The position numbers and the translations under genes are program-made. From contig CANFQX010000010.1 of assembly GCA_947449255.1 (NCBI GenBank), forward strand, positions 1-64,000: DNA of 64,000 nucleotides, written 5' to 3'. Positions 182 through 49,600 of this stretch are shown in pieces (position 1 is the first letter of the stretch; each line of letters begins with the position of its first letter). Source of the stretch: Pseudobdellovibrionaceae bacterium. Lineage in GTDB: Bacteria; Bdellovibrionota; Bdellovibrionia; Bdellovibrionales; Bdellovibrionaceae. The notes under the pieces were generated by a model that made no database searches, was not told where the DNA came from, and worked only from the letters and a program-made list of their open reading frames with translations.

Positions 182-573
182 CCGAAGGACTTTCCACAGA
201 AATATCCCAGCTCTGCGTTTTTTATGGAGACTCAGCTTCCCGGCGCCTTTTTTGCAGAGCCCTAAATTGTGAGTGAATTTTGAGTTTTTAAAAATGGAAT
301 AATCGTTAAAAATTCTGATTGTACTTTCTTGCAAAGTGTCATTTTTAACAAATAAGATGCGAGATGATTGAGTATGCCACTCATTGAGTAAAAAAGAGAA
401 ATTTTAATTACCGAAGCGGCAATTGCCAGCAAATCAAAACAATCAAAACAAATTTATCAAATTAACCTAAAACAAAATAACATCATTCGACATTTAGCCC
501 CAATTTATTCTTTGTTTCTCTTCAATCCAAACAAAGTTGCCTTACTCCGCAAAATACATTTAAGGAGTATAAA

Positions 574-724
574 CTGGCCCCTAAAATTGTTGGTCAGACT
601 AGCCCGAGTACATACTTTGCCCTCAAGCGCACGATGCGCTTGAGGAAGGCTGCACAGGATGGCCAGACGATCTGAAACCGAGGGCAGCTGTAAAAAAAAT
701 ACCATCAACAATTTAAGGGGCCAG
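574..724 (+). repeat. 151-bp palindrome-ended repeat, copy A
   Basis: The ends are near-perfect inverted repeats of about 20 bp (CTGGCCCC at 574 and GGGGCCAG ending at 724, with a matching AATTGTTG/CAACAATT core). The centre has a perfect 11-bp-stem hairpin, CCTCAAGCGCA with TGCGCTTGAGG. The segment from there through GGCTGCACAGGATGGCCAGACGA is almost identical in copies B (36675-36828) and C (49439-49590). It could be a miniature inverted-repeat element, a REP-like element or a structured RNA. No transposase is seen near any copy. Confidence 0.85.
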
Positions 725-871
725 TTCGTAAGTAGTAAATTTAATATGACGACAACATGAAGTTTCTAATTGCAGATAGAAAAGCCTTTCAGCATTTTTT
801 AATTTTCAAATTTACTCCCAACAGCCCTTTATTTGAAAATTCCAATTCAAATTCAAATTCCGACTCAATTT

Positions 872-36630: not shown

Positions 36631-36674
36631 GCAAAAGCCTTTTGAATTGAAATCTACAGGAATGCCTCTTAAAC

Positions 36675-36828
36675 GGGCCACTTAAATTGTTGATCAGTGC
36701 AGCCTGTGTTTATATTTTGGCCTCAAGCGCACGATGCGCTTGAGGAAGGCTGCACAGGATGGCCAGACGATCTGAAACCGAGAGCAGCTGTAAAAAAAGT
36801 TGTGCTATCAACAATTTAAGAGGCCACT
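36675..36828 (+). repeat. 151-bp palindrome-ended repeat, copy B
   Basis: Same element as 574-724: end repeats GGGCCACTTAAATTGTTGAT and the complementary ATCAACAATTTAAGAGGCC, an identical central hairpin and an identical following segment. An extra pairing GTGCAGCC/GGCTGCAC encloses the hairpin. Its right end is 11 bp from the mvaK1 stop codon (minus strand) and its left end is 44 bp after the subtilase stop, so it sits between convergent genes. Confidence 0.85.
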
Positions 36829-36839
36829 TTGAAGACCCC

Positions 36840-49253: not shown

Positions 49254-49600
49254 CCGTGTATATTTTTTCTTTTAAAACCCAAATGCAAAATCTGCGCCGA
49301 AGGTTTAAAGCCAAACCCCGATCCTAGGTCAATTATTAAACAAAAGGTATTGAGGATCACTCTTTTATTTAAGAAAAACTCAACTTCTAAATGGACAAAA
49401 AAGAGCACTCACGGCCAATGATCGCGACATTGATTATACAGTGCCCCCTTAAACTGCTGATCAGCTCGCCTATGTGTATATTTTGGCATCAAGCGCACGA
49501 TGCGCTTGATGAAGGCTGCACAGGATGGCCAGACGAGTTAACACCGAGGGCAGCTGTAGAAAAGGCGCCATCAACAATCTAGGGGGCCAGTTTGCATCGA
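49254..49600. other. Intergenic region carrying repeat copy C
   Basis: Nearly half is the 152-bp repeat at 49439-49590. The remainder presumably carries the promoter of the minus-strand beta-rich protein gene. No gene is supported. Confidence 0.5.
49439..49590 (+). repeat. 151-bp palindrome-ended repeat, copy C
   Basis: Third copy of the 574-724 element, more diverged. The central hairpin reads CATCAAGCGCA / TGCGCTTGATG, a paired change from CCTC/GAGG in copies A and B that keeps the stem intact. Ends: GCCCCCTTAAACTGCTGAT and ATCAACAATCTAGGGGGC. Its right end is 10 bp from the cysK stop on the minus strand, the same placement as copy B next to mvaK1. Confidence 0.8.

Follow-up and report, generated by a model that had tools for sequence, protein, structure and literature searches.

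What are the three look-alike units of about 151 bp with palindromic ends that recur within 64,000 nucleotides of the genome of a Pseudobdellovibrionaceae bacterium (this whole stretch is called the window here), and what keeps their hairpins paired when bases change? The preliminary description offered a miniature mobile element, a REP-type repeat or an RNA. Our analysis points, with a probability of roughly 0.7, to two nested mobile repeats: a REP/REPIN-like family that owes its mobility to divergent Y1 transposases, and a MITE, the amplified form of one family copy captured by an insertion sequence (IS).

Three composite units in the window

A 22-bp core motif occurs three times in the 64-kb window against 0.00 expected from shuffles, in line with the three copies first noticed. 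Units A, B and C (572-726, 36672-36829 and 49439-49592; 155, 158 and 154 bp, respectively) are a few bases longer than originally given, and their inverted ends (TIRs), present as described, measure 23 bp rather than about 20 bp (Table 1). The proposed central hairpin is found mid-unit in all three copies as a perfect 11-bp stem with a CGA loop (hairpin 1). Copy A shares 87% identity with copy B. In copy C, the second pair of hairpin 1 is A-T in place of C-G (CATCAAGCGCA..TGCGCTTGATG), and the reported paired change, C to A on one side and G to T on the other, is thus real and leaves the pairing intact. The window copies are composites, in which the outer ends and the inner 79 bp are two different repeats, and the hairpin-repeat family is present in the window only as cargo of the MITE. 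Near the contig start, positions 870-900 of the window hold a short imperfect tandem stretch (cctaaacctaagcctaagtctaagcc).

Table 1. Features of the three window copies, in window coordinates (CM, covariance model).
Feature	Position	Strand	Evidence
Copy A, left TIR of MITE	572..594	+	AACTGGCCCCTAAAATTGTTGGT; 2 mismatches against the 23-bp TIR
Copy A, embedded 79-bp double-hairpin repeat	614..692	+	CM R1, 101.7 bits; tip CAGCTG at 685-690
Copy A, hairpin 1	621..645	+	11-bp perfect stem, CGA loop; covariation
Copy A, hairpin 2	648..664	+	GGCTG-CACAGGA-TGGCC
Copy A, right TIR	704..726	-	exact TIR
Copy B, left TIR	36672..36694	+	TIR pattern search
Copy B, embedded 79-bp repeat	36714..36792	+	CM R1, 101.1 bits; hairpin 1 at 36721-36745, hairpin 2 at 36748-36764
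Copy B, right TIR	36807..36829	-	TIR pattern search
Copy C, left TIR, diverged	49439..49461	+	CAGTGCCCCCTTAAACTGCTGAT; by eye, outside the 3-mismatch match list
Copy C, embedded 79-bp repeat, compensatory change	49480..49558	+	CM R1, 97.3 bits, and alignment; hairpin 1 at 49487-49511, hairpin 2 at 49514-49530
Copy C, right TIR	49570..49592	-	TIR pattern search

The inner repeat in its own genome

The genome that holds the window (G000) was searched and read in stretches. Copy A used as a query gave 42 matches, mostly to its inner part only, and a covariance model of the inner 79 bp gave 55, far more than the three copies known at the outset. These matches are of three kinds: bare copies next to ordinary genes, copies enclosed by a TIR shell (about 16), and copies that follow one another on the same strand as arrays, on contigs C24 and C33 (9). 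Most of the 55 have no shell and are intergenic, with sharp ends and no TIR. The boundaries of 39 bare copies are sharp, ACTT at the start and GCAGCTGNA at the end, with an A-rich stretch beyond; target duplication among these 39 does not exceed chance. Bare copies have no fixed target tetranucleotide adjoining their ends and show no convincing replication-strand bias.

Gene 3′ ends are the preferred sites: counted over all copies, 20 are convergent, 17 and 9 tandem and 6 divergent, and the tandem sites of bare copies comprise 10 of (-,-) and 5 of (+,+) orientation. About 40% of bare copies are without an adjacent gene reading in the direction of the folding strand. Most copies are solitary and next to core genes, those of the own genome being mostly singlets. 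In G013, G003 and G020 the gap between pgk and tpiA is occupied by the repeat; other species have a short or different gap there. The arrays (L076:1-5000 on C24; L077 on C33) consist of shared units of about 500 bp near an rmlA-like sugar gene, with about 400 bp in common besides the repeat, and BrnT/CopG toxin-antitoxin, Fic, DUF4143 ATPase and other accessory genes lie between their repeats.

An order-wide family with covarying stems

Relatives were searched with successive models (R1, R2, R3), each built on the matches of the previous one. R2 detects the repeat in 5 of the 24 genomes of the genus, and R3 in 23 genomes, all of one order, from 10 genera in 5 families, with copy counts that are 'at least' values among the matches listed, up to 12 per genome; elsewhere in the phylum R3 yields only three marginal matches (E of 3e-4 to 1e-3). 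This is a real order-wide family of hairpin repeats. The first hairpin of each member has a perfect 11-bp stem that is free in sequence and closed by a short conserved loop; the second has CUCA(N)GGAUGG, or something close to it, in its loop, and the tip ends in CAGCTG. The repeat has no match in Rfam, at the gathering threshold or at E values up to 1, and is in that respect not a described family.

Between genera the hairpin stems are wholly different but still paired. In an alignment that was fitted to the model, which favours the structure, 124 cells are changed on both sides of a pair, compared with 34 in shuffles, double changes occur at 14 of 16 pairs, and the covariation score is 0.538, against 0.149 when shuffled and at most 0.117 with slid partners; by eye, too, the stems are perfect or near-perfect palindromes. 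The argument for a selected fold, drawn at first from the single change in copy C, therefore stands on a far larger sample. G-U pairs are very rare in hairpin 1 (3 of about 840 cells in 77 copies); those of hairpin 2 favour the plus strand. Selection on an RNA is expected to lead through G-U pairs, which is not required of a DNA hairpin that an enzyme recognises; the scarcity of G-U pairs in hairpin 1 is thus suggestive of DNA rather than RNA.

Inverted doublets with their tips outward occur in G020, G013, G031, G072, G078, G124 and G051. At more than one place in G020 (L167 and L075), CACTTCCATTTGGCAGT adjoins the doublets. In two other genera (L283-L289 in G107; L294-L301 in G108), the 79-bp repeat is embedded in longer repeats (about 226 bp; several hundred bp), which are often located at the ends of contigs. 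Phages and plasmids were considered as vehicles of spread and rejected, the phage and plasmid collections giving no match, and the pattern matches in viral and genome sequences look like chance matches in coding sequence. The repeat was also rejected as an intrinsic terminator, with no U-run on either strand.

The shell and its parent insertion sequence

The outer shell is a MITE that derives from an IS1/IS1595-like insertion sequence by deletion of the transposase, and it is this 151-bp shell that the proposed 'miniature mobile element' fits. The MITE has about 16 copies in the own genome, where the 23-bp TIR is found 24 times, compared with 0 for a reversed control pattern. The same TIR bounds a decayed IS at C12:106193, whose transposase lies on the minus strand, and is also present at the end of C1. 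An intact relative in G013 encodes a 296-aa transposase (L071:602-1492) that stays below the cut-off of the IS1 family model (51 of 100 bits) and matches no Pfam family above cut-off; its homologues are found in 14 of the 24 genomes of the genus. The preliminary description was right that no transposase is near the three loci, but the genome has the parent IS at another place, and relatives have Y1 transposases next to the repeat.

Both the decayed and the intact IS carry the 79-bp repeat between the transposase stop and the TIR, whereas the homologous IS of ten other genomes have a terminator-like hairpin or a short spacer instead. Because the repeat is missing from these ten, it was most likely inserted into the IS secondarily. 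G020 has the repeat and no IS1/IS1595-like transposase of this kind. A clear 9-bp target duplication (AGCGCTATT) is seen at one of the eight MITE copies checked (C12:53891), and the three window copies show none. Given the shared ends, the MITE copies would have been transposed by the IS enzyme. A second group of transposases (L244, L250, L251 and L252) is followed, past the stop, by imperfect palindromes of about 150 bp with GGCCTGGATGGCC-type hairpins.

Y1 transposases beside the repeat

A protein search of loci from other genera with the RAYTs of the genus revealed matching genes directly beside the repeat in G124 and G043. Y1 genes adjoin 8 of the 12 G124 copies examined and one G051 locus, and in all nine the gene shares the strand of the repeat and starts 49-424 bp downstream of the repeat tip; the single adjoining Y1 gene of G043 is on the opposite strand. 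Repeat and Y1 gene together are homologous between two G124 loci over about 690 bp, with unrelated flanks. Four of the five proteins tested score above the cut-off of Pfam Y1_Tnp, and the repeat-adjacent proteins reach 16-20 bits on the NCBI REP_Tyr_transpos model, compared with a cut-off of 80.

One Y1/RAYT gene was detected in the own genome (C6, L206:3300-4150). It is of another, canonical type (64 bits on REP_Tyr_transpos) and has a different palindrome on its flanks (GGTACGGCGTACC / GGTACC..TTTTTGCCACTCGCTGCG), one also found in the arrays, and a link between the repeat and this RAYT was rejected on account of that palindrome. The search and reading of the own genome brought up no Y1 gene matching the repeat, so the cognate enzyme may have been lost, may have been missed or may act from outside. 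Within the genus, 29 other Y1 loci sampled have no repeat alongside, and ten RAYT loci inspected share no palindromes.

Comparison with known systems

REP and REPIN sequences with their RAYT (TnpA_REP) are extragenic, palindromic and present in many copies, form inverted doublets, make no target duplication and lie beside Y1 HUH genes (PMC3116915, PMC8266576). The 79-bp repeat resembles them in being repetitive, extragenic and palindromic (55 intergenic matches, hairpin pairs kept), in forming inverted doublets and in adjoining Y1 genes (G124, G051 and G043). However, known REPs are 21-65 nt long and have one hairpin with a GT[AG]G tetranucleotide 5′ of its foot (PMC3116915, PMC8266576), whereas this unit has 79 nt and two hairpins, and the alignments show no conserved GTAG or GTGG at either foot of either hairpin. 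It differs from REP/RAYT systems also in the multi-copy Y1 genes of G124, with the repeat always upstream, in the low scores of their products on REP_Tyr_transpos (16-20 bits), and in an own genome without a matching Y1 gene. By analogy, the 79-bp repeat most likely works like a REP, and of the terms first proposed 'REP-type repeat' suits the inner core best; strict membership is not claimed because the GTAG foot is absent and known REPs are shorter.

The atypical Y1 subclasses 2.6 and class 3 comprise divergent Y1 proteins with flanking hairpins that lack GT[AG]G, the palindromes of class 3 having a CnGA foot (PMC6006769). The present system is like these, by description and not residue by residue, in its divergent Y1 proteins and hairpins without GT[AG]G, and unlike class 3 with respect to the CnGA foot; the word Bdellovibrio does not appear in the text of that survey (PMC6006769). 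The shell agrees with IS1/IS1595-superfamily MITEs in its TIRs common to a transposase-bearing IS and its internal deletion, a target duplication of the 8-9 bp expected of such elements being clear at C12:53891 alone, but differs from other such MITEs in carrying a second, independent repeat family as cargo and in a transposase below the IS1 cut-off. The IS200/IS605-derived PATEs are short elements without TIR or target duplication, with subterminal hairpins on one strand and a Y1 enzyme acting in trans. The 79-bp repeat is likewise short, devoid of TIR and target duplication, has its hairpins on one strand and may be served by a Y1 enzyme in trans; unlike PATEs, it has no fixed target tetranucleotide next to its ends.

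Discussion

Under the favoured reading of two nested mobile repeats, the 79-bp repeat would be copied as single-stranded DNA by divergent Y1 (HUH, IS200/TnpA_REP-like) transposases recognising its hairpins, and such recognition would preserve the pairing of the stems independently of their sequence. One repeat most likely landed behind the transposase gene of an IS1/IS1595-like element; deletion of the transposase would have left the IS ends and the repeat, that is, the MITE, which the IS transposase would then have spread, the three window copies being of this kind. We infer that Y1 enzymes move the repeat, that its folded form is single-stranded DNA and that the own genome once had, or borrowed, the enzyme.

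A structured RNA in 3′ untranslated regions, maintained for its role in regulation or mRNA stability and perhaps bound by CsrA, would also produce strong covariation and a plus-strand preference of the G-U pairs in hairpin 2. The loop of this hairpin (CACAGGAUGG / CUCAAGGAUGG) resembles CsrB repeats and contains GGA in nearly all copies, CsrA is encoded in 13 of 13 genomes checked, and copies lie behind core metabolic genes, the one at pgk-tpiA being kept in three species. Yet hairpin 1 is almost without G-U pairs, gene orientation is not fixed at the tandem sites of bare copies, the repeat is patchy though CsrA is found in genomes with and without it, and there is neither a U-run nor a promoter-like conserved sequence in the upstream flank. 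An RNA would, moreover, leave the adjacency of Y1 genes unexplained. The RNA reading, one of those first proposed, is thus unsupported by the evidence that could be tested, also in view of the bare copies without a suitably oriented gene, and we regard it as unlikely.

The repeat might instead have been a working component of the IS1/IS1595-like element from the start, such as its terminator, with the bare copies as IS remnants, an idea that agrees with its position in two species, where the IS has it behind the transposase stop and before the TIR. The repeat-free homologues in ten other genomes, the sharp ends of bare copies with no IS sequence alongside and the presence of the repeat in G020 without such a transposase make this very improbable, and it is largely refuted. 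A cassette recombination site like the attC of integrons is suggested by the arrays on C24 and C33, in which toxin-antitoxin, Fic and DUF4143 genes separate copies on the same strand. It is hardly credible, however, as no IntI scores above cut-off, R′/R″ core sites are absent, the two ends do not pair, the arrays have more in common than the repeat and most copies are solitary beside core genes.

Beyond the nested-repeat reading, it is proposed only tentatively that these repeats may form a separate class of single-stranded-DNA mobile repeats. Its two-hairpin unit would be known by shape, with the stem free and the loops and tip fixed, would be moved by its own multi-copy Y1 lineage, which travels with one copy as an autonomous unit, and would have been captured repeatedly by other transposons across a bacterial order.

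Paired base changes that arise almost without G-U intermediates are a warning that covariation alone is no proof of RNA. The family bears on how RAYT-domesticated Y1 transposases recognise palindromes and whether they still move them. With many different perfect stems on one scaffold, in some genomes beside multi-copy Y1 genes, it makes recognition by shape versus recognition by sequence directly testable.
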